Below, in pieces: positions 1 to 63,769 of a stretch of DNA of 64,000 nucleotides. The notes beneath the pieces were generated by a model. That model was given only the letters and a program-made list of their open reading frames with translations, ran no database searches and was not told where the DNA came from. The stretch is from Lactarius indigo (Eukaryota > Basidiomycota > Agaricomycetes > Russulales > Russulaceae), in assembly GCA_025766275.1 (NCBI GenBank), contig JAFKAC010000143.1, positions 53,803 to 117,802 on the forward strand. Reading direction: 5' to 3'. How positions within the stretch are numbered: position 1 is the first letter of the stretch; the number at the start of each line of letters is the position of its first letter. The position numbers were made by a program, and so were the translations under genes.

Positions 1-130
1 CTGTTGGCTCGATGTTTTGCAGATGCGAAGAAACGTTGTTTTTTTGCAGCAGCTCACCAAATGTCTCAAGCGTGTACATCTTCCCAAGAAAAGTGAAATG
101 GTGTAGTGGCCAAGAACCTGAGTTTGCCTA

Positions 131-446
131 TTCCCCCTCTTCAGAGCTGCCGAACAATTCAATATCCTTTCCATGTTAATGGGGCGTGTTCATACTGCTT
201 TCATAGAGACTATACTATCAAGCTCTATGTATTAATCTAGCTGTGCGAGACAAATCTGTTGTTTTTTGTCTACAGTGACTGAGGATCTAGATTTGTGAAT
301 GCAGAGTGCTCCCTCCTCTGAGCTGCCGAACAATCAAAATCCTCATGATGTTAATGGGGCGTGCTCATACTGCGTCCTCAGAGTCCATACTATCGAGCTT
401 TATTTCTCAATCTAGCTGCACAAGATAAATGCTTTGTTTTTTTGTC
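131..446 (+). repeat. two-copy direct repeat, period 176 bp
   Basis: Copy 1 (about 131-270) and copy 2 (about 307-446) align through GAGCTGCCGAACAAT, TTAATGGGGCGTG and a T-rich end before TTTTGTC. They differ by scattered substitutions. Each carries one CTGCCGA word. I see no coding frame in 1-700 that I can support. A minus-strand open frame at 468-722 has no recognisable features. Confidence 0.7.
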
Positions 447-706
447 AAGACAGACCCATCTTAGCGGTTATCTATCTTGGCACTGTTGATATCGTAAATA
501 GGGTCTGGTTGTAACATTGGCAAAACCAGGCCATCTAAGGACCCTAGATCGTGCTTCGGCAGCTACCGACTGATGCGCCCAGATGACAGACTCCAAAATG
601 ATGGCTTGCTGCACTTTCAGGTGCCTTAATAACTGCCTTTTGCAGGACCCATTCGTGGATGTATAACAGGCCGTTGTCCCGCAATCCTTTTCCCTTACAG
701 CAAACG

Positions 707-1737
707 ATGAAGAGAACAGCATACTATCAAAGGTGAGTAATATTATGGCACTGTTTCCCTGCTCTTAAATACGAGTGGCCAGATATCTTATTTGCTGAAT
801 TCCTAGGAACAAAAAACCCCTCCAGACTTACCAGCGGGAATATGCTCGGCGGAAGCGAGCACCTGGGCACCGAAAGGTCAGCAAAGCAGAGCGTGCACTA
901 TTGGAGGAAAGGTGTGCACAGAGGTGCATGCTAATGGCAGCGGAGGACCTGCCGAAGTGCTCAAAGGCTGCTCTTTCCCGGTGCGTCTGCTACCCCCTCC
1001 AGTCACTTGGTTCTCACATGGATATCAAGGGGCTACGAATGTTCTCTCATCTTACAATCCAAATCGGCAGATTCCCGAAGAACCCCAGACATGATAGAGG
1101 AGGAAGAAAGGGCCCGCAACTGCTTCGATGAGTTGAAATTCATACTTCAAACATTCTGCCTTTTCCCGTGGATAGAGCCATTCCAGAAGCATGTTGAAGA
1201 CTTTATTCAAGAGCGGCTTTCGGAAGCAGCAAGTATTATAGCGGTACCAGGAATAGAAGAAGAAGACTCAATCCGCCTTCATGGATTACGACGCTTGGTA
1301 GCTGGCGCCATTCAAGAAGTGGAGCTGGTACAGCAACCTTGGTATGCCGCTACATGTGCTAGGGAGGACGGCGCTATTATATGGGATGGTCGAGGGTACG
1401 TGATTAAAAACTTATCTGCTGTGTCCTTGCCTCGCACACCTTCTCAGAGTTAATTCGAGGAAGTTTCGGCAGCGTTATGGCTGGTGATACCAATTTCCCA
1501 GCACTTGTTCAAGCTACATGTGTATTTAGCTACATATGGTCTATCGTCCCATATCCATATAAAGTAAATAAAAAATGCGTTACATTCATGAAGTGGCCAT
1601 TGGCTATCGGTGAGGACATCAGGTGCATTGGAAGGAAAATGTCCAGAGAATGTCTCCAACAGACATTGGACTCGTTGAACATCCCAGAGTGGTTTGGGAG
1701 GCTGCCGATGCCGGTCCCTCAAATCCACCAACAGTAG
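707..1737 (+). CDS. hypothetical KDZ-A accessory protein, multi-exon
   Basis: I do not recognise this protein. ATG at 707 opens a 26-nt exon followed by a good donor (AG|GTGAGTAA at 733) and acceptor (CCTAG, ending 806). Splicing gives a continuous, very basic N-terminus rich in K/R (807-980). A second intron lies somewhere between about 981 and 1080; its exact junctions are unresolved. The next exon is acidic (EEEE run, then FDELKF and an IQERL segment) and runs to 1395. A third intron, 1396-1472 (GTACGT...TCGGCAG), joins in phase to an exon ending at 1737. The product would be about 240 aa, with no signal peptide or membrane segment obvious. Its position 5' to the transposase and its CTGCCGA words suggest element cargo. 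Confidence 0.5.
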
Positions 1738-1804
1738 AGTGGGCGGCTATAGGTCCAGATCTATCCGATCTGCAAATACAATGCCTGGCCTGCCAAAGCT
1801 GTAA

Positions 1805-1858
1805 ATGAAATATCTAGACTGCCGAAGCTGCCGAAGCTACCGAAGCCACTGAAGCTGC
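1805..1858 (+). repeat. short tandem array of a CTGCCGA-containing 9-mer
   Basis: About five imperfect copies of AAGCTGCCG occur just upstream of the transposase start (1960). They may be part of its promoter or a clustered protein-binding site. I saw no separate TATA box close to the ATG. Confidence 0.7.
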
Positions 1859-1959
1859 CAGAACAATACTCGGACCGCCAACGTTTCCGGTAGGCTGATA
1901 AGAGGCACTCCTCCAAGCATATACGCCACAACGCAAAACCCCACCTATCTAGGCTCCCC

Positions 1960-4900
1960 ATGGCACCCAAAGGTATAAAGGCATCCAAAGTCTTCCAGAG
2001 AAAGTCTAAGGCCAAGATAATCGACTGGGTGACTCGGGAGGGCTCTCGAGGAACTAGAAGCGTCCCAGTTGAAGTGATCACCTCAACAGATTTGCCGGTA
2101 CCGAGGAGAGGTGCTGGTGGAAGAGAGATAGACAATCATGAGGCAACTTTGCATGAAACTGATCCTCCAGCTATGGATATCGACGACACATTCTGGATAG
2201 AGGAGCCAGAACAGAAAAGAGTGAGTTCACTCACACGTCTGTCCTTGACAGTAATTGACATGTCTCAGTCCCAACGTACCTATATGGAGGAGTTTATTCC
2301 TAGGATTGGCCCTTACCTGCGCTGCCTCCTCGATTCTGAGGGCGTCCCTGCTATGACAACGTGTCAGAGCTGCATGTCTGCTCCATTTGAGTGGAGGTGC
2401 ACTGAATGCTTTCCTACTCTGGTGCTCTGCAAGGAGTGTTGCCGAAAGTCCCACCAGCGGCTCCCTTTCCACAGGGTCCAGAGATGGACAGGAAAATACT
2501 TTATTTCATCTTGGATGCGGGAGGTTGGGGTAAGCTTGCGTCTTGGACACTCTGGAGATTTATGCCCCAATCAATTGAATCAAAGCGTGCGTTGCGAATC
2601 CTTTTATATTTTAAATCACATCCCAATCGATACAGTCACAGATGGACTGCGACGATGAAGACCGCCAGGTCGGCAGCCAAAATGAATATGACACAGCTGC
2701 CGACTTTGGCTTCGGCACAGCTGCCGACCTTGGTTTCAACAACTCAAAACCTGGTCGTCGTGACAAAGACGGAAACCCAATCATTACTGTTATTGATAGG
2801 TCTGGTGTTCATGATATTGGTGTCAGCTGGTGCTGCTGCCCTGAAGCTCCCGAGCACGACATGCAGTTGATGACGGCAGGGCTCTTTCCAGCTACATTTC
2901 GCAACCCAAGGACAGCATTTACCTTCCGGGTGCTAGAAGACTTCCATTTGGATAATCTTGAATGCAAGACAACTCCGAGCCAGTTTTTCAGTCGCCTAAG
3001 GAGACTCACAAATGATGAGTTTCCGAATACAGTGCCGGTAGGAGGATTTACAAGCCTATCTGCCGACGGTAAACTAAGTGGAATACTTAGGACCGATATC
3101 GGGAGCTTCTGAGGGCCTGCCGACAGTGGAGAGTGCTCATTTCCCGAAAGCGATTTGGTTTTGGGTATGGAGGGGATGAAGAACAGAAGTCAGGATCGAT
3201 GGCTATATTTTGTGCTTTGTGTGCACAACCCGGGATCAACCTCCCTGAAGATTGGAGAGAGTATGAAAATAGGTGCGTTAATAGACATCAGTACCTGGCA
3301 GCTGCCGACATATATCACTTTAGCGACGTCCTTTTTATGCGAGGTTTCATGATGGATGGCAACTTCCAGGCAGAGCACATGAAGATGAGAAATCCAGAGA
3401 ATGATATTCCACTTTCCGAAGGCACAGGGTTCATGGTCAGCCGAGAACCATACGAATCGCATCTGAAATCGGCAGTTGAGAGGCGGCAGGTCGGTACTAC
3501 ATCTTGTATTTCGGCAGAGGAAAGCTCACACTCAAGCAGAGGTCGACATGCCATGATCACCGTGCAGTAAATAATGTAAACAAGCATAGCTCACACCTTG
3601 AATCAACTGGAATCGGCGCCACAGCCTGTATTCATGGGGCCTTTGTCCCTGATTCTGTTGTTGACTTTCAAAAGGGAGAAGCGTGAGTTTTCATATTTAT
3701 CAATATATGCTAGGTGAAAACCAACCTCCAAAAGCCAGAAGAACATGGACTACTCCATTTTCAAGGCCCTTAACTTTAATATGGAGGGAATAGAGGCCGC
3801 CCTCATCTGCTACGATGTTATGTGTCAATGGAGTGTTCATATGGCGGAGAGGGTTGTCGGCAGCAACTATCTTGAACTTCCCGATAACCTGGAGCTTAGG
3901 TTGGGCATCGGCCTTTTTCACATACACGGACACCAAGATACCTGCTTAGCTAGGTACTCACCCAGCTTTATCAAAGGTGGACGACAAATCGATGGCGAGA
4001 CCATTGAAACACTTTGGGCTCCGCTCAATGAGATCACTAGAAGCACAAGGGGGATGTCAACATCACACCGTAGGGAGGTCATAGACGACCACATGAACGA
4101 CTCCAATTGGAAAAAACTTATCGACCTAGGCAAGTTCTTTCCTATGGATGCCACACCGGTGCTCACTCTGGTTGTGTAGTCAATGCCGTGTCTAGACGCT
4201 ACCGAAAGGCACTTTCGGCAGCTATGCTGAGCACGGCAGCATTTGAGTCCATAAGTGCATCGGCAAGTCCAGAACGTATTAAGGCTTGGGGTGCCGAAGA
4301 GGAGCACGCACAAAGGGAGCGAGGTCGTGATGTAAAAGTGATGGACATCTATGACATCAAGATGAAACGATGTGGGTCTGGTTGCTCCGTGATTGTTTTT
4401 GCCTAACATGAGGATTCAGTCCCATCGCGTGCAGAAATACTTCTTGATTTGACAGAGAAGGAGATAGAGGGCTCTGGCCATAAGGGGCATGCTACGTGGC
4501 TCAGTAGCGGGTTGAAGATTCAGGAGACGCAGTATGATTTTCGGCAGCTTTCTGAGGGAGACTTCTGATCATGGTTTCACAAAAAATGTAGGTTATCCCT
4601 TCAAGCACTGGAAAGGAAGATTGGGTCCCATCCAACACCAGATCAACAAAGGGATATTGCCTTGAAGCATGCTCGGCTTCAAGAAAGAGTTGACACGTTC
4701 CAAAAGCAGGCGGCTAACATTCTCCGGGCTTCCCCTGACAGTGGAGGTGACTCCTGGGATAACACCCCTTTAAGAGAAAGATATATCGGCATCGAATTTG
4801 ATGGCATTGGTGAAGGAGAAGACGATGACGAGTGTGCATCATCTGCCGAAGAACATGATCAATTGCAAGTATCAGGAAATAACTCCACTGACGGCAGTAT

Positions 4901-5729
4901 TGATGCAGAGTATATCCCATTGCATCTCCCCTCACATCTCGGATATGACTGGTGTGACAAAAATGGTGCCGAAGACCTGGCGAAGGCGGAACTTCACCTA
5001 AGGGAGGGCCAACTCAATGACTCTCTGCATCATATTCGCATTGCCCTGGGACACAAATCCTATCTGTTCAGACATGACGTTCGTCCAGCACGTACACAGA
5101 GACTCAAAACGCGTGCTTGGACAGAGGTGCATGCTGCCGAGTCAACTGTTCAACATCATGCTCGGGTGTATACTTGTGCACGGCAAGCAATAGTAGACCT
5201 TGGCGCCGGCAGCTCTCTCCTTGACAGGTACAAAGTCTTGAGGCGCCAGGACTTGAGTGTCAAGACAAGCGTAATTGCACCCCATGTACGTGGACAACGG
5301 AACAAATCATTGCCTTGGTTTTGGACAATGGATGTTCGGAGAGATGCCGACGTTGGGGAATGGATGGAAGATTGTACGGGCTACTCTGTTCATACATGCT
5401 TAAGAAATCTAACACTCCACACAGTCTACCGGGTCCATTGGCTTCGAGCAAAAGCTCAAAAAATGCGGTGGATTGAAGAGCTTCAGTGTCTCCAAGTCGA
5501 GATGGACTCTGCCATTAGGTTCTTCAGGCATCAAGAGAAATTTTGGCAAGCAAAGAAGGAGCTCATTGAGCCCCAGTCACAGCCGGGGCATGCTGTGTGG
5601 GCAGCAAGACAAAGCGCTATGTGGAGTTCAATGGCTGTCCAGGCGGGGTCCAAGTTTACTGCTTTGCTTAAGAGTGACCCACCTCCTGAGTTTGCCAAGG
5701 TCCTACTACAGCCAAAAACGAGTAGATAA
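1960..5729 (+). CDS. KDZ transposase A with CxC2-like cysteine cluster
   Basis: This is a cut-and-paste type transposase of the KDZ class. The conceptual product is about 1085 aa from 11 exons: 1960-2220, 2269-2586, 2636-3037, 3091-3272, 3324-3489, 3540-3682, 3735-4129, 4180-4371, 4420-4531, 4592-5373 and 5425-5729. All phases agree and there is no stop or frameshift. Introns are 48-60 nt; the seventh has a GC donor (GCAAGT). Residues about 119-155 form a Cys/His cluster (CQSC, CTEC, CKECC, then two His) like the CxC2 domain fused to fungal KDZ proteins. The RNase H-like core shows MDGNF (Asp about 399), YDVMCQ (Asp about 518), a HIHGHQDxC segment and GETIETLW (Glu about 579 or 582) as probable acidic catalytic residues. 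The C-terminus is helical and basic (RVHWLRAKAQ). CTGCCGA words interrupt coding exons. The gene is probably functional by sequence alone. Confidence 0.88.
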
Positions 5730-6214
5730 AATTATTCAAATACATACAGTAATCTCAACTAGTCGTCGGTAGTCATTGGGGGCTAAAATATCGGCAGCAT
5801 CCAATGGCAAGTTGGGCTTGTTTCTATCTACTAAGGGAAGCCATGTGGACAGTGGAATCGCTGCCGATGACGTTGTATTGGCCAATAGCTGGCAGGGAAC
5901 TGGCAAACAACATCCTCACATGGGCCCACAGAACCCATCGTGTTGACCCAAAGTTGTTGGGAGAGCTGCCGAGTGTAGGCCGATGGGTTAAGCTGCCGAG
6001 CCAACACCTCATATGGGCCTATAGTCTCTGTCTATGGCCACCCATTGGCCTATAGAACCCATTGCGCTGGTCTAAAGTTGTCGGGAGAGCTGCCGAGCAT
6101 GGTCCCAGGATCACGTGTATGATTTGGTGGCGTAACCCTACCTTAGATTATTAGGACTCATAGGCAGCTTCCAAAGGCAATATCACACTCCATTCACGTC
6201 ACACACTACATACT
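5730..6214 (+). other. spacer with direct repeat and paired words
   Basis: I see no gene here. A direct repeat of about 50 bp (around 5925-5974 and 6049-6098, period 125) ends in GGGAGAGCTGCCGAG. Copies of TGGGCC/GGCCCA sit beside the CTGCCGA words, the same pairing as in the large arrays at 9.9-12.2 kb and 61-63 kb. Confidence 0.6.
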
Positions 6215-6905
6215 ATGTCAGCTGAAACAGGCACCTCTATATTAGATGCTGTGCTCACCTGCATCGGCGAGAGAATATCCTCTATCTTGCTCAACTCTGC
6301 CGATAAAGATGAAAAGTATATCGCCAGCTTACACAATGAAGTGGCAAGCATTAATTTTCCATCCAAAACAAGTGGAACACATTCTGATTAGAATTTGGAT
6401 TTAGCTTGCTGCCGTATGGGTCACTGGCCTTTTATCGTCTAGCGGCAGCCCCCCTCATGTGCCAGAGGCAGTCAGGATTGCCTTTCACCATTTTTCGGAC
6501 ATCAGGAACCCGGCATCCTATGCAGCACATGATGCAGACCAGAGGCTGAAATGCAAGATTGAGGCATTAGCCATTCCACGATTTAAACTTACGGAGTGGT
6601 GGAAAATTGGAGAAGGGGTGACGATGAAAGAACCATTTGATGTCCGCGATGAGTTAGTAGCAGAGTTGTTGCGTGCTCTAGAGATGGTATGCACCCTGCT
6701 TCATTTACAAGTCCTCAAAGTAACTGGAACTGCAGCAGGAAGCTGGCTCAAGTCTTCGCACTAGGGTAACAGAAAGGTTCAAACAAGCTCGGCAGCTGTC
6801 CAAGAATATCGAGAGCTGCCGCGATTCCATTTATCGCATGTTCGATGATACTTATCGCAGTTTTGAGGCAGAGGCTAACCGTTTGGAGAATGAAAACTCT
6901 GGTTG
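6215..6905 (+). CDS. small KDZ-A accessory protein, coiled-coil-like
   Basis: I do not recognise this family. ATG at 6215 opens a frame (starting MSAETGTS) that runs to 6391. After an intron near 6390-6455, a frame open from about 6459 encodes a charged, helical segment (IAFHHFSD, LTEWWKIGE, DELVAELLRALE). One or two further introns lead to a last exon from about 6767, with RQLSKNIESC and a charged heptad-like tail, ending at TGA 6903-6905. The last junctions are not settled. It converges on the minus-strand gene at 6941-7453. Both lie just 3' of the transposase, so they look like co-mobilised cargo. Confidence 0.5.
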
Positions 6906-6940
6906 ACGATTACTGTAGTTCTACACATCACAGAATACGA

Positions 6941-7453
6941 TTACAGCTGCCGATCCTCCCCAATGAAGGCGTCTGCCATAACCATCTCATTGTCCAAATC
7001 ACGCAGAAGTTCCTCCAATAGTTCGATCTTCTCTGATTGCTTATCTTTCAGGAGGTTAGCTCGATCTCTGGCAATTGAAAGCCATCGTGGAGAGACACCC
7101 TTTGGAGGATCCTGGATTGTTTTAGCTGATGTCAATCAGATGACACTTGAGTTACCTTGTCAATGAGCTTTCCAATCACAGGTTGTAAGAGTGTCACACT
7201 TTTCGGGACCTCGCTGAAACCTTCGGCATCTGCTGTTGGGCCGGAGGGTCCCACCATTCCTTGCTGGTGTTGACCCACATCAGACTCCATTCCATTGAGG
7301 AGTTTGACCCCATTCCAGAATGCAGATCGCATCTATAGGCATCGGCTCAGCGTTCTAGTAAAGCATTAGTTTTGATACACACACCGCCTCCTTGAAGCTG
7401 TTCTCCTCTGACTCATAGACACCTTGTTTCATCTCTGAGGACTTCCCCTGCAT
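6941..7453 (-). CDS. small KDZ-A accessory protein with C-terminal coiled coil, 138 aa
   Basis: There are three exons on the minus strand: 7453-7385, 7332-7156 and 7111-6941. The introns are 52 nt (GTGTGT...TATAG) and 44 nt (GTAACT...TCCAG), both phase 0. The product is 138 aa. The N-terminal two thirds are polar, while residues about 93-125 (RDRANLLKDK, then EKIELLEELLRDL) form a strong heptad-like helix. The function is unknown. A similar layout (basic stretch, then an acidic helix ending in ELDN) appears in the truncated minus-strand frame at 63569-63769, which may be a relative in a second A-type element. One CTGCCGA-type word lies at the 3' end. Confidence 0.6.
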
Positions 7454-8116
7454 GGTTGATAGATTGTTGATCGGATATCAGTAGATGTCCCTCACAGTAT
7501 GACGTCATAAGCGCTTATGTACACATGCGGATCTATGAATCTGAAACAAGTTACATGGGGTGGCAACAATCTATATCCCCTTCTGATTAGTTGGAATGGG
7601 CCAAAAGCGAGAGAACTGCTGGGTTAGACATGAGAGCTGCCGGGTTAGACATGAGAGCTGCCGGGATAGACACATGAGCTGCCGAGCTGGATACAAGAGC
7701 TGCCGGGCTAGACACTGGCATAGGCCAGCCATATGTTTGTGTTTTGACTGCCGGCTGAACAAATTAAGCCCACGCAAGCAGCACGCATAACACCCAATAA
7801 TCTTCCCTGAAACATCTTCTGAAACGTGCCTGTGTGGGTCAATGGAATCTATGTGTGAGCTCCCAACAAACTTGCGGCAGCCCCAACAATATGCCGGCAA
7901 GTGAAGCGCTTGCCTGGCCCATATAGTACACCCACACACACTGCCGATGAAACTAGATTCCCCTAATAGGATGTTTCACAATATATCTATCTGCATAGTT
8001 GATAATTATGGATGGACATACCCAGGCCACGCTCCTACTGTTTCCTCCTATATATACTCCCGACACCTCTTGCCTTCGATCCATAAGACCATTGACACCA
8101 CCCTTCCTCTGTGACC
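7454..8116 (+). promoter_or_regulatory. intergenic region with CTGCCGG/A tandem array and TATA box
   Basis: About five imperfect copies of a 20-21-bp unit, GAGCTGCCGGGTTAGACAT, lie at roughly 7627-7712. A TATATATA at 8049-8056 is 61 bp upstream of the ATG at 8117 and is the likely core promoter of the downstream gene. I see no gene in this stretch. Confidence 0.6.
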
Positions 8117-9781
8117 ATGTCAACTTCCAATCTCAGTCTAACCCAGGACGAACAAACTCTTCACCACTATGCAGCTATGCTCGAGAAGGAACTAGAAGCC
8201 TATCATGCATGCATACCTAGAGATGAAAAGGTGTGGAGGAAGAAATTCAGAACGCACTTGGTATTCTAGTCTTCCTACAATCCACTTCTATAAGCTGAGC
8301 TGAGGTCTATACAGAAGACTTCAGTGGACTATTATTTCGGTGCCAATAGAAGAGGCTCTGTACCTCCCCGCATTCACCCACTGTTGTTAAGCCTCATGGA
8401 AGTGATCAGAGAGGGTGGAACCTCTGTGAAAATAAGTTCAGTCTCAGTGAAGGATCCAAGGATTTTGATGAGCAACTATTATACTTCACCAACGGATCTC
8501 CCACCACTGAATATACATTTACCAGGCCAAAATGGTGTGGATCCTCTCTCTGACATTCATGTCTGTCGACTGACATCGGCAGCTTCTTGTCAAGAATGCA
8601 TGGACAGTTTGGCATCAGTAGGTGGCATGATGATAAATATGCCATCGGCAGCTTCCAGTCCAGCTCCTATAGCACCTGGGCATCAAGAAAATCCAGCAGG
8701 TGGAAACATAATGACTACCTCAGTGGCAGCTTCTGGTCTAGAACCTATGGCATCTGAACCTCAAGAGCCCTCGGCAGAGATAGGCAATCCAAGAGCCCCT
8801 ATTCCCAGGAGGAAGAAGGATTTGTATGCGTCTGGTAGTGGTGTTCGCAGTGAGTCCTGAATTTTGTCATGCAGATGTGTTGAGGAATAAAATTGCCAAA
8901 GAAATTGTTACCAGATCGGCAGCAAAAAGGAGTGCTGCCGATGACACTGGTGAAGCAGCTATCAGCACTACATACAAGACTAGGAGGCGTGCAGGAGTTA
9001 ATAATCCGAGTGCAGCTAGGCCAAATATCAAGGGTAAGGGAGAACGGGATAAGAGGACAAGCTCAAGAAAGGGCAAGCCTCTACACCCAGAAGAGGACCC
9101 TGACAACTGGGAGGATGAAGCTCAACCTCTCAATAAACCAATGGGGGGAACCAATGAGGAGGCGTCGCCAGGTGCATTAGGTCTAGCTTCCATTGGTTCT
9201 ATGCTCATCACATTTACCGGCAGCTAAAGAAATTGTTACCAGATCGGCAGCAAAAAGGAGTGTTGCCGATGGTATTGGTGAAGCAGCTATCAGCACTACA
9301 TACAAGACTAGGAGGCATGCAGGAAATAATAATCCAAATGCAGCTAGGCCAAATATCAAAGGTAAGCGGAAACAGGATATGAAGACAAGCTCAAGGAAGG
9401 GCAAGCCTCTACACCCAGAAGAGGACCTTGACAACAACCGGGAGGTCGAAGCTCAACCTCTCAATAAACCAATGGAGGGAACCAATGAGGAGGCATCGCC
9501 AGGTGCATTGGGTCTAGTTTCCATTGGTTCTATGCTCACCACATCGATCGGCAGCTGAAGGCGAAGATAACAATAATATAGTTAAACAGCTCGAATGGGA
9601 GGTCCAGAGTCTAAAGGTCAGATGTGACTGGCAAGAGAAAACAATTAAGGATCTGAAATCCAGATGCGATAGCCATGAGAAGGTCCTTGAGTCACTTCGG
9701 CAGCAAATTGTGGGTCTCCATGAGAGAGGGAAGAGCCTGAATACTACATATTTTGGGGAGAACTATGATCTCATGCCATAG
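8117..9781 (+). CDS. KDZ-A accessory protein: basic repeat plus coiled coil
   Basis: I do not recognise this family. ATG 8117 has a favourable context (GACCATG). Exon 1 is 8117-8260 and intron 1 is 8261-8314 (54 nt, phase 0). Exon 2, from 8315, is rich in S/P/A and ends near 8834; intron 2 is about 8835-8874. Then come two nearly identical exons carrying a basic, NLS-like module (TRSAAKRS, TYKTRRRAG, SSRKGKPLHPEED). Each is followed by a short intron ending in cGGCAG at 9222 and 9555. The last exon, 9556-9781, is a coiled coil (WEVQSLKVRC, IKDLKSRCDS). Without the repeat this would be an acidic/basic nuclear-type protein with a dimerisation tail. DNA binding is a guess. Confidence 0.6.
8898..9555 (+). 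repeat. tandem duplication of one exon plus its intron, period 328 bp
   Basis: The segment starting at GAAATTGTTACCAGATCGG (about 8900) is repeated at about 9228, and both copies contain the same exon and the same 3' intron. The break is phase-compatible, so the basic module is doubled without a frameshift. The copies differ at scattered sites and by a few codons (for example WEDEA versus NREVEA). Confidence 0.85.
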
Positions 9782-9889
9782 CTACACTCCTCATACCAAT
9801 ATAGGCTCATCAGCAGGATGAATGCATGGGTATTGCAGGTCAATACATGCTTGTCAGAAGAGTACAGATATGAACACTGTGAGCCAACT

Positions 9890-12200: not shown

Positions 12201-12311
12201 AGATAATGTGGGCCCACACGAGACTGTTTGCAGACAAGCCTGATGGGCCCATACGAATATATGCACATTATATCTACAATGGGCCCACATGGGCTTTGCC
12301 GACTGACACGG

Positions 12312-13276
12312 CACAATTGCACATGGGCTTTACCGAGTCTATCGCAAGGATTTGCGTCATGGGCTCGCAAAGCGCCGTCAACGCAAGGCCAGCACATCTG
12401 CTAAGGCAAAGGGAAAGGGAAAGGAATCCCTTCCGGACCCTGTACGTCTGTTTTTCTCTCCGAGTGGTGGTGCGATAATCTGGCATCCAGGGATTCTGTG
12501 GGCCATGCCAGATGTCCAATGCGAAGGAGTGTGTCCCCCAGGTCAACGCTCCAAAGGCCATAGCATGTGCGCTCTGCCGGAGTCGCAAGGTGCAATGCCA
12601 GCCTCCACCAGCTTGGGCACTCCCGATCATCGAATCCATCGAGCGCTCGAAGCTTGCGAAGGAGGAGAGGAAACAGCAGCCGCCCCGGAGGCGTTCGGCC
12701 GCATGTGCGCAATTGACCGCAGTCCGTCCGAACTAATTTAACGTTCCCTTACAGCTGTCTTCGACGATATGACGCCGACACTTGACTCTCTTAAGCGCGG
12801 ACAAGAAAGGCTTGAAGAGCGCCTTGCAGCTCTCCAGATTGGCCAGAACAATCTGGAACTACTCCTCCGTGCGCTGTGCATGTGCCACGACGTCATTCCA
12901 TCGACCCTCAATCTCCATACCCCACCAGTCCCTCTGTTCAACTCAGCATCTGCCGTCTCGCCATCTATAGCTTCCACACTCAGTACCACAGCTTCCACAG
13001 CTGCTTCGACATCCTCCACTGGCGTTGACGTCTCCAGGCTGTCCATCTCAGCCAGTCCAGCCACAGGATCGTCCGGAAGCGGTGCTGGGAATGTGCCAGC
13101 TAATGGTGCGTCGTCCGAAATCGGACTCTATTTCGGACTCGTTTGCCTTATGTCTGACCCCTGTTAGTGTCTACTGGGCGCAGTGGAGCGACCATCAAGC
13201 CGGCCTCTAGGGCCCCAAGTGTCTCTAGGGCCCCTAGTGCTCCTGGGTCAAGGGCATCCTTGCGCAGTCGGCCATA
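12312..13276 (+). CDS. KDZ-B accessory protein: CxxC..C motif and coiled coil
   Basis: The start codon is not resolved; the frame is open from about 12308. The first exon is basic (KRRQRKAS, then a K/G-rich stretch) to 12438. An intron of about 73 nt ends in GCCAG before ATG 12512. The second exon has CALCRSRKVQC, resembling the first half of a fungal Zn(II)2Cys6 cluster, but the second half is absent. After an intron ending at 12752 (TTACAG), a helical segment follows (LKRGQERLEERLAALQ) and then an S/T/A-rich region. A last intron, from about 13109 to 13166, holds two TCGGAC words. The final exon is S/R/P-rich and stops at TAA 13274-13276. GTCCGA words near 12726 and in the last intron assign it to element B. 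It may be a DNA-binding accessory factor. Confidence 0.5.
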
Positions 13277-13476
13277 ATGGTCACAGTTATCATTTAAACC
13301 AAGTAATAGAATGTGTCGTTCATATGTAGTACCAGAGAATGTCTAGAAATGAAAGTTGGATTGCTTGCTTGCTTACCATATGTGGTCATGTTGACCTTGA
13401 GTTTGGACTGAGCTTATGCACATTCTATGACTCACACAGACTTGGGCGAATTGGGTGTCGGATAGGCACTGTCTCG

Positions 13477-14290
13477 GATGCACACCAACTCGGACGCACC
13501 AACTCGGACGCACGCACACATGCTCGGATGCACACCGACTCGGACGCACACATACTCGGACGCACACATGCTCGGACACACACCAACTCGGACGCACACT
13601 TGCCCGGACGCACACCGACTCGGACGCATACATACTCGAACGCACACATGCTCGGATGCACACATGCTCGGATGCACACATGCTCGGATGCACACATGCT
13701 CGGACGCACACCAACTCGGACGCACACCAACTCGGACGCACATATGCTCGGACACACACCAACTCGGACGCACACCAACTCGGACGCACACTTGCCCGGA
13801 CGCACACCGACTCGGACGCACACATACTCGGACGCACACCAACTCGGACGCACACATACTCGGACGCACACATACTCGGACGCACACCAACTCGGACGCA
13901 CACCAACTCGGACGCACACATACTCGGACGCACACCAACTCGGACGCACACATACTCGGACGCACACCAACTCGGACGCACATATTCTCGGATGCACACC
14001 GACTCGGACGCACATATTCTCATACGCACACCGACTCGGACGCACATATGCTCGCACGCACACCTACTCGCACGCACACCATCTTGGATGCACACCTACT
14101 CGCACGCACACCAACGTGCATGCACACATGCTCGCACACACATATTCTCGGACGCACACCATCTCGGACGCACATCGACTCGCACACACACCATCTCGCA
14201 TGCACACATCCTCAGATGAACACCATCTCGGACACACACCATCTTGGGACAACACCTTGGACACACACCATCTCGGACACATACCATCTC
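13477..14290 (+). repeat. B-type minisatellite, 16-bp units
   Basis: About fifty copies of a 16-bp unit of the type CTCGGACGCACACCAA or CTCGGACGCACACATA occur. At the 3' end they decay to CTCGCACG and CTCGGACA variants. Sixteen is not a multiple of three and the units lack stops, so long spurious open frames exist on both strands. Every intact unit has one TCGGAC. Confidence 0.92.
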
Positions 14291-14299
14291 AGATGCACT

Positions 14300-15363
14300 T
14301 AGTGTTAGAGTCACTCTGTTTTGCACTCACACCTCCCCAGCTCACTCTGTCTCTGATACTATGTACTGTATACATCCTATTTCACCCCATGTTTGATGCA
14401 CTTATTCTATTAAATATGTTCAATTGATTTAGGGAGATCATCTGACTAATTCCTCATAATACTCCTTAAGTCTCGACTTCATGCGCATCTTGGGACACTA
14501 TATATAATGCTATTCACAGAACATCCTAAGCGACTTCAGTAATCTCAGGTCCACATCAGATGCCTTATTCTCAGTCCAGTTTCATCATACTTAGTGGATA
14601 TGTACTGTCCTTGTCATGGAATTGCGGTGATGCATATTGAGCACTCTGCTCCCATCTCTGTGCCAAACAGACAGGGGAGCACATGTGTCTGTTATGTTTG
14701 TATATCATTACATAGTGTATCTTCGGTACATGTGTTAGCATGACTTGGTGTACCTGTATCAATTAAGAGAACTGATGGCATCAAAGACTGTCCACTAATA
14801 GCCAAAACATGCATCCTGTTGACATCGGACATTCATTTCCGTGAATCTCGGACATTCATTTCCGTGAATCTCGGACATTTATTTCTGTGAATCTCGGACA
14901 TTCATTTGCGCAGACATCGGACTTTGGTGTGTGTCAGTGACTAATATCCATCCAAATTGGGTGTCTAGGCAAGGATGCTGATACTAATGCTAAGCAATCA
15001 AGTACGAATTGCTAGGCACATAGTGCATTCATTATGATCGTATGACTAGCAGACTAGTAATCCTTGTGTGTGTTGCCTATGCTGTGGTGACATCTCTACA
15101 TATCCAATGCAACCCAAGAGATCTTGCAGAGTATTCACTCACTCCACATACATCACACATGTTTCAATTCAAACCCAGTGAAGTGCTATACTTGACAATA
15201 GGTGATCGGAGTGGGGTGGGGTACTGTGTTACAGATTATGCCATTATCCATGAGATATTGGATACTCAGATAGCTTATAAATGCTCACGAAACACTGTAC
15301 CATACAACCACTGTATACACAACCATAGTCAATTCCGAACCTCACTCCGAATCCATCAGGAAG
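14300..15363 (+). other. AT-rich spacer of element B with a 22-bp tandem array
   Basis: About four copies of a 22-23-bp unit, TCGGACATTCATTTCCGTGAA, lie at 14826-14935. Otherwise I see no supportable gene. A plus-strand frame at 15042-15407 has no motif and overlaps the next gene out of frame. Confidence 0.6.
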
Positions 15364-15793
15364 ATGTTGCCAATGACAGAAACACATGGATCCTTGTTTA
15401 CACATGACCATGATACACCTTCCAATCTCTCCGAGCCAGAGACCTGCATCTCATCAGGTTTTGAATCATTTGATGAAGAAGATATGTATCCGGCCCACTA
15501 CAATGATGAAGGCATCAGCACTAGTTCTGATGCAAGCAGCTCAAATTCGGATGTCTCTGGTTTGGATGGTTCCAACTCGGACTTAGAGTCACTAGTTGCC
15601 TTGGGAAACCTGGTATGTGCATCACTCTGGAGCATATTTTACGGTATCCTTATGTGGGCCATAGTATAATCAGATCATTGTGGAGATCGACAGGCTCCAC
15701 ATTGACCTCCAGAATATGTGCATCATGGCTAAGGCACTTTGTGATGCACAGGGGATTGCGCTGCCTTCGGAGTATGTTGAGATGAGTGGATGA
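15364..15793 (+). CDS. small KDZ-B accessory protein, 125 aa
   Basis: There are two exons, 15364-15612 and 15665-15793. They are joined by a 52-nt phase-0 intron with a textbook donor (GTATGT) and a TAG acceptor. The product is 125 aa. The first part is acidic and serine-rich (EDMYPAHYND, SSSNSDVSG). The end is a predicted amphipathic helix (NQIIVEIDRLHIDLQNM) ending in PSEYVEMSG. I do not recognise a family. It lies upstream of the transposase in the same orientation, like the first hypothetical gene of element A, but I see no convincing similarity to it. One or two TCGGA words lie in its coding region. Confidence 0.55.
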
Positions 15794-16432
15794 TCCTTCC
15801 AACACTTGCACCAGAGGTGTTGTCATGGGTGGGTGGTACTATTGTAGTATATAGGTCTGCAGGTAGCTATTGCATGTACCTGTGTTTGGACTGAGTACCC
15901 AATCAATGAACTAGATCTACATGGTCTATATCATGAATGTTGGCATACCATACATTCTGTTACTGCTTCTGAGATGTATGTGGGGTAACACAACTCTGAG
16001 AGATGAATATGAAATATTAGATTGTCAAACTCCATGAAATGGAATCAGTGGACAATCTCGGACTGAGAATCACAGACTGAGAATCATGGACTGATAGTCT
16101 CAGTCTGACAGTCTCAGACTGACAATCTCGGACTGACAATCTCGGACTGACAATCTCGGACTGACAATCTCGGACTGACAATCTCGGACTAACAATCTCG
16201 CACTGACACTCTCGCACTGACAATCTCGCACTGGCAATCTCGGACTGACATACCCATATAGATTCAGTGTCCGAGACACCTGCCACAAACTATCAGGTAT
16301 CTCTGAGATCAATAATGGACATATATGAGATGTGCATGGAGCAGCAGATATAAAAGGAACATTGATACATACCGAAATAGCATCATCCACCACAGATACA
16401 CCCCTCCTGTTTATACTTTCTGATCACCAGAG
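15794..16432 (+). promoter_or_regulatory. upstream region of transposase B: 14-bp array and TATA box
   Basis: About twelve units of the 14-mer TGACAATCTCGGAC, with variants CTCGCAC and TCAGAC, occupy 16095-16250. A TATAAAAGG at 16349-16357 lies 76-84 bp upstream of the ATG at 16433 and is a probable TATA box. The array is thus placed like an upstream regulatory cluster of the transposase gene. Confidence 0.7.
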
Positions 16433-19400
16433 ATGCCTCGGAGACGTGCAGCTGAATCTCTTCTACCAGCTGAGGAGGGTATTGAAGAAGTTATCATTCA
16501 TCACAGACGGACCAAGAGGGGCATTCGGACCACGCAGAAGTCTGTCCCCATTCTCCTCCCAACCAAGGCAAAGGCTGGAGAGTCTTCCAACTCAAAGAAG
16601 GGAAAGAAGGACAAAGCATTAGATCCAGCCACAGCAGAGGGATCTCAAATGGCCTCAGCTTCCTTCAAAGATACACAAGCCGAGCAATGGATAGATGAGC
16701 AAATGGATAAGCTTCCAAATGATGAGACCAAGCAGTCTCAACCACAGGCACCTGTATGTACCAGATATCCACTACATGGGGTGAAGGATGCTAATATGAT
16801 GTAGACTGTCATGGAGCAATGGCTTCAACTCCGGAGCAGATATCTCCATATACTTTTGGCGATGGAGAGTCGGCCTTCCTCCTCCACATGCTCTATATGC
16901 CATGGCCATGGAGAGGTCAAGTGCCCTGACTGTGTCGGAGCACCACTGTTTTGTCAATCCTGCTGTGTCAAGTCTCACAGGCATTCACCATTTCATCGGC
17001 CACTTCTATGGACTGCAACACACTATACTCCGGTTTCACTGCACTCACTGGGATTTGTGCTGTTCCTTGGGCATGCTGGTGCACCATGTCCATTGACTGT
17101 TGAAGTATAATACCATTGCATTGTCTCATGTGTACCTGTGCTCATGCTCATCTAGGGAATCAGAGCAACACAGGGACCCCATGGCAAGAGAAATAAACAC
17201 ACCGGACCTGGGTTGTCATCTTCGCTGCACTCCGTTCAAGAGGAACTAGAATCTCTCCAACTTTCAGACCACTCAGCCACACCCCAGGATACCCCGAAGC
17301 CTTGTGGTGTATCAACTACTCCAATCATTTCAGATGCACTATTTGACAATTCGGACATCTTTCCGGATTCAAGTGACAAGCACATGTCCATGGATCAAGC
17401 ACCCAGAGAGCTTTCAGGAAATCAGATTCTAACAATTGTCGACAGGAGTGGTATCTTTGAAATGGAGACAGTGTTCTGTGTCTGCTCCGAATCGGATAAC
17501 CAAGATGAACAGCTGCTCCAGAGTGGTCTATTTCCTGCTACCTTCAAGCAAGTCAGGACTCTGTTCACATTCTCAGTTCTTGATGACTTTCTGAATGACA
17601 ACTTGGAGTGCAAGACCACAGCCCAACAGTACTATTCCAAGTTGCAAAGCCAGACCAGTAGAATGTTCCCAGGACTTGTTCCGGTCCGTTCCTCTTCTTC
17701 CACATCACCCACAGTCGATAATGAATTGTTGCAGAATTTGTATAGACAACTATTGAGGACATCACGCCAATGGCGAGACCTCAGGTCCAGAATGGAGCAG
17801 GGACTCGGACACCAGTCGGAGGAAATGTCTCCGGATGGCTCCATGGCAATTTTCTGCCCAGCATGTCCACAGCCAGGAGTCAACCTCCCAAGAGATTGGA
17901 AGGCCAGATATGAACCGTATGTGGAATCTTCGGACACTGTTTTCATGTCATTGACCCCCTATAGGAATGAATTGATCCGAACATTCATTATGGATGGAAA
18001 TTTCTCTGCAGAGCACATGAGGCACAGGTCTGGAGAGAAGGATGTTGCACTGTCTGCTGGAATGGCCTTCATGGCGAATCCAGAACTGTACAAGGCTCAT
18101 CTTAAAAGTGGCCATGAAATTGTCCAGGTATGTTGTGCCTCCCTACCAGGTTTGGTTTGGCTGATGGCCCAATAGCCAAGCACATGTAACACATACAAAG
18201 CCATTGAACAGGCAAATTCAAGTAGGGCACATCTTGATGTCACAGGGATTGGTGCAACAGCTTGCTGCCATGGATTCTTTGTTCCGACTTCTGTGGTAGA
18301 CTTCCAGAAGGGAGAGAGGCATGCCCCATTCACTAAAAGTCTCAGTCTGCAACTGATTTACAATGATCACCAGGCAAATAAATATGGACTACAGCATCTG
18401 CAAAGCTCTTTCTTACAACATGGAAGACATGCCAGTTGCACTGGTGATGTATGACATCATGTGCCAATACAGAGTGCACTTCCAGGAGCGAGTAAGGAGC
18501 AGTCCAGGATTGTCACTACCCAGTTCCGAGGCCTTGGACATCCGGATGGGTATCGGACTGTTCCACATTCATGGCCACCAAGATTCTTGCTTACCACAAT
18601 TCTCTCCGAGCTACATTCCTGGTGCAAAGCAGGTTGATGGAGAGATCATAGAGACCTTATGGGCCCCACTGAATAACATATCATGGAGCACACGAGGGAT
18701 GTCCCTGGCTCATAGGCAAGAGGTCCTAGATGCCCACATGAACCACTCCAACTGGAAGAAGCTGGTCCGGATCGGTATGGCCGGATTATACATAATGGCA
18801 TACAGAGTTAACATCACTTGAATATGACAGTTCCATCACTTCTCAAGCGGTGGAAGCGCTCGGAGCATGGCCTAGATGCAAGCAGCAAGGCATTTGAATC
18901 TCTTAGTGAACATTTTAAGGACAAGACCAAGCAATGGCTAGAGGAGGACATGGCTGCACAGACACAGAGAGGTGTGGACCCTTCTAGCATGGACATATAT
19001 GACACAGTGAAGCAGAAAGGTTCGGACACCAATCATGGATAGCCTCCTCCGAACTAATGCTGGATTTAAGCACCTTCTCGTGCCATGATTCAACAGCAAC
19101 TGATGGCAGATGAGGATGGGAACCATTCCATTCGTGGTGGGACATCATGGATTTCATGTGGCCTCAAGATTCAGGAAATGCAGTCAGTTGGCCATCAGTG
19201 TTAACATCACCAGAATTGTACACCTGATGGCTTGCTTAGATTGGCCATCAGATATCAGCTCCGGACCCATGGCTCACACACAATTGAAGACTTTCAAACA
19301 ATTGAGAACAAGCGGATCCACCTGCAGAAGCTGATTGACATGTTTTCACACCAGGCAGATGCCTTTCTGCTCCACCATCAACCACTGGATGCACCCATCC

Positions 19401-20303
19401 CATCACTGGGTGACTATGGAGAGTATGACCATGTGGATGATATGGAGGATTCCACAGTTCCAAGATCCAAGACTCAGATATCGGACATCTCTGGATCGGA
19501 GGGTACCAATGCAGAGGACATTCCGATTTTACTCCCATCAACACTTGGAGCAGAATGGTGTATCACTCATGGTGTCAAATCTCTTGCACTTAAGGAGGCT
19601 AAGTTGCGCTATGCCCAGGCAAATGATTCGATCCACAGGATTCGCCTGGCATTGGGCTTCAAATCGGCACTGTTCCGGACCCAGGTCCGAGGTGCGCGAA
19701 CACAGAAAACGAAGACTCGTGCCTGGACTGCAGTCCAGAGCGTTGATAACACAGTCCATGAGCATGCTCGGACATATAGCATGGCAAGAGATGCATACAT
19801 CAAGGTGCAGCAAATATCCAAAGATTTACAAGAACTACCATTACTCCAGGCAACAGATCTCCGTGTTCATACAGCCATCCTTGGTGCTGGAGTAGTGGGG
19901 CAGCGGAACACACAGCTTCCATGGCTCTGGAGCTTTGGTACTTCTGAAAAGAGAGGTGGTGCATGGTTTGATGAATGTGAGTAACTACTTTTATGCATGC
20001 CCATGACCCATGCTGATTGAATGAATAGTTAACCGTGTGCATTGGCTGCGAGCAAAGTCACAGCTTGAACGATGGAAGGAGGAAGATAAGAGCATCAGAA
20101 ATGAAGCATTGTGGGTTCCAGCTTACTTCCATGCAAAGGCAGAGTGTTGGAAGACATGGATGGATGTGGCAACAAAGGGGAGGTTGGATGGGCACAGTGC
20201 ATATGCATCATACCAGGTGCACAGATGGGAGGAGATGTGTAGGAGTTCAGTCAAGGCACTCACTCCAATAACATCTGCTCATAATAGATTGGAGGATCAA
20301 TAA
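16433..20303 (+). CDS. KDZ transposase B with CxC2-like cysteine cluster
   Basis: This is a KDZ transposase of about 1116 aa from 11 exons: 16433-16753, 16805-17104, 17156-17683, 17735-17916, 17965-18127, 18176-18318, 18374-18774, 18831-19019, 19071-19182, 19240-19976 and 20029-20303. All phases agree and no lesion was found. The ten introns (48-57 nt) match transposase A one for one; the sixth has a GC donor (GCATGC). The N-terminus is basic. Residues about 136-171 form the cysteine cluster (CSIC, CPDC, CQSCC, two His). Core motifs are MDGNF (Asp about 454), YDIMCQ (Asp about 573), HIHGHQDSC and GEIIETLW (Glu about 636 or 639). The protein aligns with A throughout but is clearly diverged. 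GTCCGA/TCGGAC words lie in exons and introns. Confidence 0.88.
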
Positions 20304-20630
20304 ATCAGATTACTGTGGGCCCATATCTTGGGCAGATGACATTGAACAGCATCGAAGAATATATCATTTGTGCAACATTTCCAAGAGATGGTGTCCAGAA
20401 GTAATTTGGGTTATCAGTATAAGATGTATTCCTACAAGGGGCTTCCTGGTAATAGGTGGCTACTGATATGAGCTCTCGAAGATATACTTTTTGAAGGTGG
20501 TAATTATCACCTGTCTGACATACACTGTCAAAGAAGACACAGTAATCTGTTTGAGATCACATCATGAAGGGTGTTCGCAGTTATCTGCCTGAGATATATT
20601 GTCGGTGGGCATGATCAAGACCTATTATTG
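20304..20630 (+). other. 3' flank of transposase B
   Basis: I see no gene here. The sequence grades into the palindromic array, with degenerate words such as GAGATATATTGTCGG. Confidence 0.5.
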
Positions 20631-21690
20631 ATCTGTATACACAATAATGTGTCCGAGATATATTCTCGGACAATGTTCTTGATCATCTGTCCGAGATACA
20701 TTCTCGGACAATGTGCCTAATCATCTGTCCGAGATATATTCTTGGACAATGTTCATGATCATCTGTCCAAGAATACATCTCAGACAATGCTCTTGATCAT
20801 CTGTCCAAGAATATATCTTGGACAATATCCTTGATAATCTGTCCAAGAGTATACCTCGGACGACGTTCTCAATCATCTGTCTGAGATATATTGTTGGACG
20901 TGGTTCTTCACCAACCATCCGAGATATGTTCTCGGACGTAGATCTTAGCCATCCGTCCGAGATACTATCTCGGACGTAGATCTTAAGCATCCGTCCGAGA
21001 TACTATCTCGGACGTAGATCTTAACCGTCCGTCCAAGATACGTTCTCGGACATAGATCTCAAGCATCCGTCCGAGATAGTAACTCGGACGTAGATCTTAG
21101 CCATCCGTCCGAGATACTATCTCGGACGTAGATCTTATGCATCCGTCCGAGATACGTTCTCGGACGTAGATCTTAAGCATCTGTCCGAGAACGTATCTCG
21201 GATGTAGATCTTAAGCATCCGTCCGAGATACGTTCTCGGACGTAGATCTTAGCCATCCGTCCGAGATAGTATCTCGGACATAGATCTTAAGCATCCGTCC
21301 GAGATACTATCTCGGACGTAGATCTCAAGCATCCGTCCGAGATAGTAACTCGGACGTAGATCTTAGCCATCCGTCTGAGATAGTATCTCGGACGTAGATC
21401 TTAACCATCCGTCCGAGATACTATCTTGGATGTAGATCTTAACCGTCCGTCCGATATACTATCTCGGACGTAGATCTTAAGCATCCGTCCAAGATAGTAT
21501 CTCGGACGTAGATCTTAAGCATCCGTCCGAGATAGTATCTCGGACGTAGATCTTAAGCATCCGTCCGAGATAGTATCTCGGACGGTGATATTAGCCATCC
21601 GTCCGAGATGTGTTCTTGGATGTACTTCTTAGCTGTCCGTCCGAGATATACTCTCAGACAATAATCACGATCATCTGTCCGAGAATGATG
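20630..21690 (+). repeat. palindromic B-type minisatellite, about 40-bp units
   Basis: About twenty-six units alternate a spacer (GTAGATCTTAAGCATCC) with a nearly perfect 21-bp palindrome of the type GTCCGAGATACTATCTCGGAC. Each unit therefore presents the GTCCGA word twice in inverted orientation. Early units (20640-20880) are degenerate (TCCAAGAATATA); those from about 20930 are well conserved. Confidence 0.92.
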
Positions 21691-21807
21691 GTCCTTGATG
21701 CCATATATCCCATATCTTTGAAAATGTCTAATGTGATTCTCCTGACAATACACCCTTGGTTTGCGTTCGGTCATCTCACTCGGAGGTATTTATACATTTT
21801 GTCCGTC

Positions 21808-21915
21808 CGAGCCGACGTCGGTTGACCCATGAGTCTTGGGAGATTCTTTGCCGTCGGCCGACGTCGGCTGGCCCATGACATATGAAAGATTCTCACCGTC
21901 GGTTGGCCCATCAGT
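21808..21915 (+). repeat. right-edge repeats of element B
   Basis: There are two and a half copies of a unit of about 47 bp with the self-complementary core CCGACGTCGG and TGGCCCAT. They recall the TGGGCC pairing of A-type arrays. This could be the subterminal region of element B. Confidence 0.55.
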
Positions 21916-21959
21916 TATGGAAGTCATGCCGGATCATTGGCTGTGTAACCACCAAAGGG

Positions 21960-60950: not shown

Positions 60951-61120
60951 TGTTGATAAGTGACCCCTGCACACTTAGCAGCTCATACAGACCGGACTTG
61001 CAGCATGGACTGCTCTAGATTAGATATACAGGACTTGTAAATTAGATACTGTTTGATCTGTACAATCTGGACTTATCATTGCATCACATATGACATCACT
61101 GTACTTCTATGACATCACAC
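60951..61120 (+). repeat. truncated TGTTGATAAG-family LTR
   Basis: It aligns with the first about 170 bp of the solo LTR at 29366. The 3' part is missing where A-type KDZ sequence begins. Confidence 0.75.
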
Positions 61121-61149
61121 ATAATGACGCAAATAATTAACGATACATT

Positions 61150-63180: not shown

Positions 63181-63185
63181 GCCGA

Positions 63186-63769
63186 CTATGTTGGCTGGGC
63201 CCAGGCATGTTCCTGTGATGCGCAGCCAACCTTCAATAGGCCCAGCCACCCATGGTCAGTCCTGAAATGTGTTGCTGATAGCTTTGAATGGGCTAAGAAT
63301 CCTTTTAAGGGCCACCATAGATTGCCTTTAATGGCCTGAGCCCTTCCCTCCAGAGTGCTGCCGATGGTCCTGAATGGGCCCAGAATTCTATGGGAAGCAC
63401 TGGCATATTTGTCTTGACATGTACCGCCTGAATGATCCCAGTGATACTCATTGTTGTCCATCGGCAGACTGTCATTCCCTGCGTTCTTGGCCAGCAAGCT
63501 CTTTTGAGCGCACTCATATGTTTTCCAATCCGAAGCTTTAACATTTGGACTATATAACACTCGATATACTACACAAGGTTCTGCACATCAGTATTGTCCA
63601 ACTCCTCGATTATATCATCTATCACCTCACTCATTTCCTTCTCCTGCTGATAGATATTCCATACCTGGGCATGGATTCGACGATTCCTTGATCCTTCAGC
63701 ACGTAAGATGGTGACCCTGGTGCTGAGATCAAACTCTTCTTGCTGTTGTAAAGCAGAATAGATGGTCAA
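63186..63769 (-). pseudogene. truncated small coiled-coil gene of a second A-type element
   Basis: The minus-strand frame at 63569-63769 reads a basic stretch (RVTILRAEGSRNRR) and then an acidic helix (EKEMSEVIDDIIEELDN). It resembles the C-terminus of the gene at 6941-7453 in layout. It is cut at its 5' side by the LTR at 63770. Downstream (63186-63560) another open minus frame may be a further exon or chance. Confidence 0.4.

Follow-up and report, generated by a model that had tools for sequence, protein, structure and literature searches.

Several KDZ transposon families of Lactarius indigo are rich in a CGG-containing word of their own and carry a gene for a putative zinc-cluster reader

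VANDAL transposons possess a Mutator-type transposase, while in En/Spm and Ac the TnpA protein and the Ac transposase, respectively, bind many short subterminal repeats; expansions of KDZ transposases and of TET/JBP genes were reportedly described by Iyer et al. in 2014. In the VANDAL elements of Arabidopsis, as set out in the cited parts of two papers, a short motif specific to each family is read by VANC, a protein encoded by the element itself (PMC5735166; PMC10398659). Here we analyse a window of 64,000 nucleotides from the 90.3-Mb genome of Lactarius indigo (G000:C50:53803-117802, at the end of contig C50), in which one KDZ transposon, element A, is filled with the word TCGGCAG and another, element B, with the word TCGGAC. 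VANDAL and VANC form the nearest parallel, as a first-pass annotation of the window had proposed: a short family-specific motif occurs in many copies or arrays in five of the seven KDZ families compared. The families' own words, together with their own zinc-cluster genes, suggest a private address system for the copies of each family.

Counted on both strands, TCGGCAG occurs 104 times in the window: 79 copies lie in the part of A that falls within it (1-12366, plus strand), nine between 22 and 61.3 kb, and 16 past 61.3 kb, where they belong to a third element that is cut by the contig end. The total for TCGGAC is 105, with 97 copies in the part of B to the right of A (12367-21943, plus strand), two before it and six after it. 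The 39.3 kb of other window DNA (22-61.3 kb), taken as background, holds nine and six copies, respectively, and the earlier claim that each word is concentrated in its own element, at a density unlike that of unrelated DNA, is borne out. With tandem arrays masked, TCGGCAG is still found 71 times in the whole of A and nine times in the other window DNA, but not in B, and TCGGAC 17 times in B, five times in A and six times in the other DNA; because the excess outlasts the masking, the words are not solely a product of the arrays. Altogether A has 131 copies of TCGGCAG and its relative F1, on contig C24, has 93, the interior of both carrying 3.6-3.9 words per kb in both orientations. Genome-wide there are 14,431 copies of TCGGCAG against 8,828 of the reversed word, and 15,901 of CTCGGAC against 12,344. 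The words had also been said to occupy exons, which is so for A, with 11 words in about 3.3 kb, but hardly for B, whose exons are word-sparse (five TCGGAC across 16.4-18.8 kb). Six of the 11 in A share one frame and strand, so that part of them may reflect a repeated Ala-Ala-Asp-like peptide. No matches were obtained for a pattern of two words separated by a constant distance.

The search of the genome for KDZ transposases counted 175 matches, and families were drawn from the matches listed; the labels F1, 152, 160, 149 and 207 are our own, given by open-frame length and score. Words were compared in long stretches, with one element from each of seven families, and the expected counts set array-masked bodies against the other families and the other window DNA. 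Scores are corrected for multiplicity, and six control stretches, which were not array-masked, gave best-word scores of 1.4-4.2. On this scale TCGGCAG reached 72.9 in A (71 copies against 2.3 expected) and 55.9 in F1 (57 against 2.0), CCGGA 24.1 in family 152 (69 against 13.1), TCGGA 8.1 in B (39 against 10.6, with TCGGAC itself at 17 against 2.4) and ACGGA 7.6 in family 160 (40 against 11.5, with CCGGA at 39 against 14.5). Family 149 is borderline, CGGGG scoring 5.5 (24 against 5.6) beside a best word ATATG at 6.6, and in family 207 no word exceeds the controls, GCGGA scoring 0.6 (26 against 12.4) and the best word, ATCCA, 1.8. A word is thus clearly above controls in five of the seven families, and the expectation that other KDZ families would have one holds for these but not for 149 and 207. 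All five clear words contain CGG, as does the borderline CGGGG. An own word for family 149 had been considered from a word-rich downstream array and was rejected, that array being read as the 3' array of a neighbouring A element with its core at C201:220311; the array was excluded from the 149 body, the end of that A element not being delimited.

Expressed per kb, TCGGC stands at 5.8 in A and 5.6 in F1, TCGGA at 5.2 in B, CCGGA at 6.7 in family 152, and ACGGA and CCGGA at 4.2 and 4.1 in family 160; any word of the form xCGGy ranges from 0.56 to 1.42 in the other window DNA. Since densities overlap, with CCGGA at 3.4 in B and TCGGA at 2.3-2.8 in families 152, 160, 149 and 207, the clade of B and these four families has xCGGA in common and differs by degree. 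In their KDZ cores the four are each 80-87% identical to B, and A and F1 are 93% identical to each other. The word follows the family, yet a single word is common to A and F1, whose zinc-cluster exons are only about 41% identical. At all 30 of the first-fetched A and F1 loci, one of which (L017) is the window's own copy, the top 6-mer is TCGGCA or CGGCAG and the top 7-mer CTGCCGA; these loci form near-identical groups, and so amount to few independent cases, copies within a family being mostly 98-100% identical. Among 20 further loci of four kb each, TCGGCA is on top in five, all of the A family, ATCCGGA or TCCGGA is on top, mostly weakly, in another five (L033, L037, L038, L045 and L047), and neither is on top in the remaining ten.

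The words recur in tandem arrays, delimited with Tandem Repeats Finder (TRF), whose units differ in length, as had been noted earlier, though with unit sizes (among them 20, 22 and 40 bp) that are corrected here. Word-bearing arrays have units of 9, 24 and 44/88 bp in A, of 33 and 42 bp in F1, and of 14, 16, 23 and 38 bp in B. A further array of A has a 21-bp unit holding the variant CTGCCGG, and word-free arrays are present as well, with units of 42, 18 and a further 24 bp in A and of 18 bp in B. On the plus strand, the 3' array of A, of 44/88-bp units, extends over 9911-12131; in B, arrays with TCGGAC in units of 16 bp (13473-14240) and 14 bp (16051-16250) flank one of the 23-bp unit TCGGACATTCATTTCCGTGAATC (14825-14922), and the 3' array at 20651-21659 has a 38-bp unit with the word in both orientations (GTCCGAG ... 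CTCGGAC). In A, all 21 words in the first 2.8 kb are on the minus strand and all 39 in the last 2.57 kb on the plus strand; in F1, the 5' end has 15 of 15 words on the minus strand and the 3' end has 21 of 22 on the plus strand. A and F1 thus both carry inverted word arrays at their two ends, and orientation in the middle of each is mixed. A B-like 38-bp array at L067 (G000:C112:448600-449900) keeps GTCCGAG and CTCGGAC with other bases between them; it adjoins a zinc-cluster gene belonging to a third lineage that has TET. Separately, a CTCGGAC array, often in 81-bp steps, lies at G000:C1:329384-333393 with no listed KDZ core within 80 kb, and may be a non-autonomous or decayed element.

Selection for the word itself, as the first-pass annotation had proposed, is well supported by the comparison of A with F1, by the recurrence of the word in arrays whose unit lengths are unrelated, and by the change of word among families with KDZ cores 80-87% identical to that of B. 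The alignment of A with F1 covers 7.8 kb, in which 16 word sites are common to both, ten are found in A only and ten in F1 only. With each site counted once, this is 16 of 36 sites shared, against 26 of 237 for 222 7-mers of the same composition with one CpG (P 5e-6). The word cores are 84.9% identical and their flanks 75.1% (P 5.5e-5, shared sites being counted here from both sides, that is, twice), whereas control words are 76.2% identical against 81.0% for their flanks; the reversed word did not occur as a control in these alignments.

Of 134 listed KDZ cores, 113 have a zinc-cluster match on their own strand no more than 35 kb upstream, and at 86 of 139 zinc-cluster places a KDZ core follows within 10 kb downstream. 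N-terminal KDZ matches were dropped before counting, one of them being added back to give the 134 cores used here rather than the 133 of the TET/JBP comparison below; from the list of F1-like zinc-cluster matches 51 of 60 were used, eight second pieces and a weak match on contig C10 (E 0.09) being set aside. In B the cluster lies at 12497-12598, in a frame at 12479-12736 (plus strand), with the spacing CX2CX7CX11CX2CX6C. The frame upstream of it is interrupted by A in the window copy and, to judge by eye from its likeness to the protein P0012, may be exon 1 of the gene; the next open frame, at 12742-13167 (plus strand), has by eye a coiled-coil-like stretch and has no Pfam match. Only the six cysteines are invariant in the eight lineages, which were themselves found by a six-cysteine pattern. 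In native order, the clusters of B, A, F1, family 160 and the third TET-bearing lineage score 8.0-18.8 bits with Pfam PF00172, under the cut-off of 21, and those of 152, 149 and 207 are not among the native-order matches listed; in the group labelled A2, four of eight members matched at E up to 1, the best at 0.0008. When the two lobes are exchanged and the loop is made shorter, the resulting peptides outscore the native ones with Pfam Zn_clus in seven of the eight lineages, A and F1 passing the cut-off and B lying at it, although the shortened loops may account for part of the gain. The two Zn2Cys6 lobes thus apparently stand in swapped order.

The predicted fold appears to resemble that of Zn2Cys6 DNA-binding domains. 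The five sequence matches of the profile in the PDB are all Zn2Cys6 factors, at E 0.86-2.7. A 60-residue model, with a mean predicted local distance difference test score (pLDDT) of 67 and of 73-78 over residues 1-40, gave Zn2Cys6 domains in 21 of 22 Foldseek matches, none under E 0.001, and superposes on GAL4 and PPR1 at 1.4-1.6 Å over 35-36 residues. The model of the full 503-amino-acid P0012 is weak (mean pLDDT 49.8, no Foldseek match under E 0.001), and for this reason no claim is made for its N-terminal helical part. In a partial listing of the open-licence literature, no paper title on a zinc-cluster or Zn2Cys6 gene of KDZ or Kyakuja elements was found.

A second gene divides the families. 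In A, a TET/JBP gene is recognised by PF12851 (L053 7329-7871, E 3.4e-18). Of the 39 listed A and F1 cores, 37 have a TET/JBP match upstream in the same orientation, mostly at 3454-3457 bp or about 4300-4330 bp and in a few cases at 8-22 kb, and these account for 37 of the 39 such matches genome-wide. Among the 94 other listed cores just one has a TET/JBP match within 25 kb, at 11.4 kb, and the DNA around it (L057) holds 13 TCGGCAG in 8 kb; the remaining match, C262:222485, is far from listed cores, with an F1-like zinc cluster at a distance of about 4 kb. B and families 152 and 160 have no TET/JBP match nearby. TET/JBP accompanies TCGGCAG, and the other words occur without it.

It is on these grounds probable, in our judgement, that the words are binding sites of the zinc-cluster (Zn2Cys6-like) protein encoded upstream, which would be drawn to the copies of its own family. 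According to the cited parts of a study of the proven Zn2Cys6 factor Pho7, such proteins typically read CGG triplets and dimerise via a coiled coil, and Pho7 itself footprints TCGGACATTCAA (PMC5559640); the 23-bp unit of B, starting TCGGACATTCAT, matches 11 of 12 bases of this footprint. The shared CGG core fits an element-encoded DNA-binding protein, as was proposed from the outset, but the reader favoured here is the product of a separate zinc-cluster gene, and the earlier choice of the cysteine-cluster domain of the transposase, CxC2, is probably wrong. We infer that every family maintains a CGG-core site of its own version, at about 100 copies per element, and that its zinc-cluster protein binds this word as a dimer held together by the helix that follows the cluster, and so affects the element. 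Most likely the protein would serve to control the chromatin and the ends of its own element: it may coat the element and counter silencing, in the TCGGCAG families together with the element's TET/JBP dioxygenase, and binding may also mark the ends for the transposase, which is compatible with such coating. The fullest form of this proposal, in which a lobe-swapped Zn2Cys6 protein coats some 100 words per copy in a family-private way and brings TET/JBP to them in the TCGGCAG families, each family thereby opening none but its own copies, and in which families split as lobe and word change together, is put forward tentatively, and we are inclined to doubt rather than to believe it in every part.

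Several observations weigh against binding by the upstream protein or against its proposed use. As A and F1 have one word and yet such dissimilar zinc-cluster exons, a link between word and protein sequence is at best tentative; family 207 has a zinc-cluster gene and no word above control; and L044, 83% identical to A, is among the ten loci with neither word on top. At L069 (G000:C270:1491246-1494245) an F1-like zinc cluster stands in a short frame with no TCGGCAG in 3 kb, possibly a decayed or host-kept copy; the record P0002 lies on the same contig. Kojima, in the cited parts of a 2025 paper, suggests that in Agaricomycotina TET enzymes of this kind may work in an untargeted manner, on the ground that retrotransposons also carry oxidised methylcytosine (PMC12730594). 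That the zinc-cluster protein brings demethylation, or an opening of chromatin, to the words, by analogy with VANC and with TET/JBP as partner in A and F1, is compatible with the words being its binding sites, and we consider it a real possibility that falls a little short of an even chance. The near-exclusive position of TET/JBP genes beside A and F1 cores and the TCGGCAG copies at the L057 exception are in keeping with it, as are the CpG inside every word and, from the sections cited, the family-specific tandem repeats formed by VANC targets (PMC5735166); B, 152 and 160, however, have words and no TET/JBP match nearby, and VANC binds non-coding parts, whereas A has words in its exons.

The CxC2 domain of the transposase might instead read the word, in the manner of transposases that bind many subterminal sites. 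CxC2 is present in both A and B; A and F1, which share the word, are 74% identical in the CxC2 frame as against about 41% in the zinc-cluster exon; their words form inverted arrays at the ends; and in Pleurotus every intact KDZ element is preceded by a CxC2 region, as stated in the cited passage (PMC7641404). The words in the interior of A and F1, in both orientations, nevertheless exceed what recognition of ends would need, and family 207 has CxC2-homologous sequence without a word above control. We know of no case in which CxC2 recognises a CGG core. Such a core fits recognition by Zn2Cys6, on what is described for these proteins (PMC5559640), and a CxC2 reader is unlikely. It is very improbable that the words are a neutral by-product of array expansion, gene conversion and shared ancestry: many copies do sit in arrays and copies of a family are nearly identical, but the enrichment persists when arrays are masked, the A and F1 sites are shared above control 7-mers and better kept than their flanks, unlike control words, B has its one word in arrays of four unit lengths, and the 38-bp array at L067 retains paired words while its spacer bases differ. 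Array spread alone was rejected on the first two of these grounds and on the differing unit lengths. A host protein whose sites have been gathered by the elements is scarcely credible as the reader, even though fungi have many Zn2Cys6 factors that typically read CGG triplets (PMC5559640, cited parts), because each family has a different word and its own upstream zinc-cluster gene, and a single shared host reader would not be expected.

The two elements were thought to be neighbours, but A is nested inside B. Element A is 23,474 bp long; its first bases are CACATAATGACGCAAAT, beginning at C50:42695, 11.1 kb before the window opens, and its last are ATTTGCGTCATGGGCTC, closing at window position 12366. 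It is flanked by a 7-bp target-site duplication (TSD), GCAAAGC, with the left copy immediately before C50:42695 and the right copy at 12367-12373. B sequence is found on both flanks of A, and a copy of B on contig C215 carries the uninterrupted site CCCTGCAAAGCGCCGTC where A sits in the window copy, with a frame open across it, upstream of the zinc cluster. Upstream of A, the left part of B reaches position 3892 of L055; neither its left end nor a TSD was found when looked for. The 3' limit of B, at 21943, is the break in homology with the C215 copy. That copy (L032/L066) carries its own insertions, among them one of roughly 0.6 kb that lies about 100 bp upstream of the site of A. F1 has ends of the A kind and the TSD AGGACAT. 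A and F1 begin with CA and finish with TC, and ATGACGCAAAT recurs near the two ends of A as an inverted repeat. A and F1 have the 7-bp TSD of Kyakuja (KDZ), but not the 5'-CA...TG-3' termini without terminal inverted repeats given for Kyakuja of Laccaria (PMC12730594). The third element, of A type, is represented by its 5' end (61118-64000, plus strand), recognised by its words and by the terminal CACATAATGACGCAAAT as in A, with an array containing CTGCCGA at 61346-62856 (plus strand, TRF).

Between its terminal arrays A has the zinc-cluster gene, the TET/JBP gene and the KDZ transposase with CxC2, and B has a zinc-cluster gene, a transposase and word arrays. On the plus strand of A, an open frame with CxC2 (2615-3112; PF18803, E 3.4e-26) is followed by KDZ frames at 3091-4179 (3091-3570, PF18758, E 0.0018 and below the cut-off; 3718-4179, E 3.8e-31) and by a C-terminal frame (4569-5729) that is 38% identical to that of B and 82% to that of F1. 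The counterparts in B, also plus, are at 17156-18175 (PF18803, E 1.3e-21), 18357-18821 (PF18758, E 2.5e-29) and 19205-19984, the last by homology to A. Homology between A and B extends over the exon blocks for CxC2, KDZ and the C-terminal part, so that the homology claimed for the two transposases is upheld, and by their domains both are provisionally classed as Kyakuja-like rather than as Dileera or Zisupton. A also contains a 258-amino-acid open frame on the minus strand between the zinc-cluster and TET/JBP genes (L053 5377-6153), with no Pfam match, and, at 8895-9560, a directly repeated stretch of some 335 bp, with 90% identity, that encodes a repeated basic open frame. Directly after B, at 22329-23576, are frames that by eye resemble a Gypsy-type reverse transcriptase/RNase H and integrase.

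Set beside the described systems, these elements share with VANDAL, as the latter appears in the cited parts of the literature (PMC5735166; PMC10398659), a short motif in many copies, often tandem, that differs between related families. They differ in their KDZ transposase, in a putative Zn2Cys6-like reader, in the words within exons and over the whole length of A, and in the TET/JBP gene of some families. En/Spm TnpA and the Ac transposase have their sites near the ends, whereas here the element is filled throughout. A and F1 are like the TET-positive Kyakuja of Kojima (2025) in KDZ transposase, TET/JBP gene, 7-bp TSD and 5' CA, but end in TC rather than TG, going by the cited parts of that paper (PMC12730594), the main text of which does not contain the words 'zinc', 'cysteine' or 'Lactarius'. 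The putative reader agrees with Gal4, Pho7, Put3, Leu3 and Ppr1, as covered in the sections cited, in its six cysteines, in a CGG within the proposed site, in a helix following the cluster and, apparently, in predicted fold (PMC5559640); it departs from fungal Zn2Cys6 factors in its apparently swapped lobes, its encoding by a transposon and a native sequence that scores under the Pfam cut-off. If the proposal is true, related DNA-binding domains with different natural sites exist in one genome, where the evolution of zinc-cluster specificity could be tested, and the result would bear on targeted versus aimless action of transposon-borne TET enzymes, which the cited parts of Kojima's paper leave to speculation (PMC12730594). 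Fungi would then have reached a VANDAL-like function by another route, with a Zn2Cys6 protein and, in some families, TET/JBP, and sequence-addressed anti-silencing would be a recurrent strategy of transposons.

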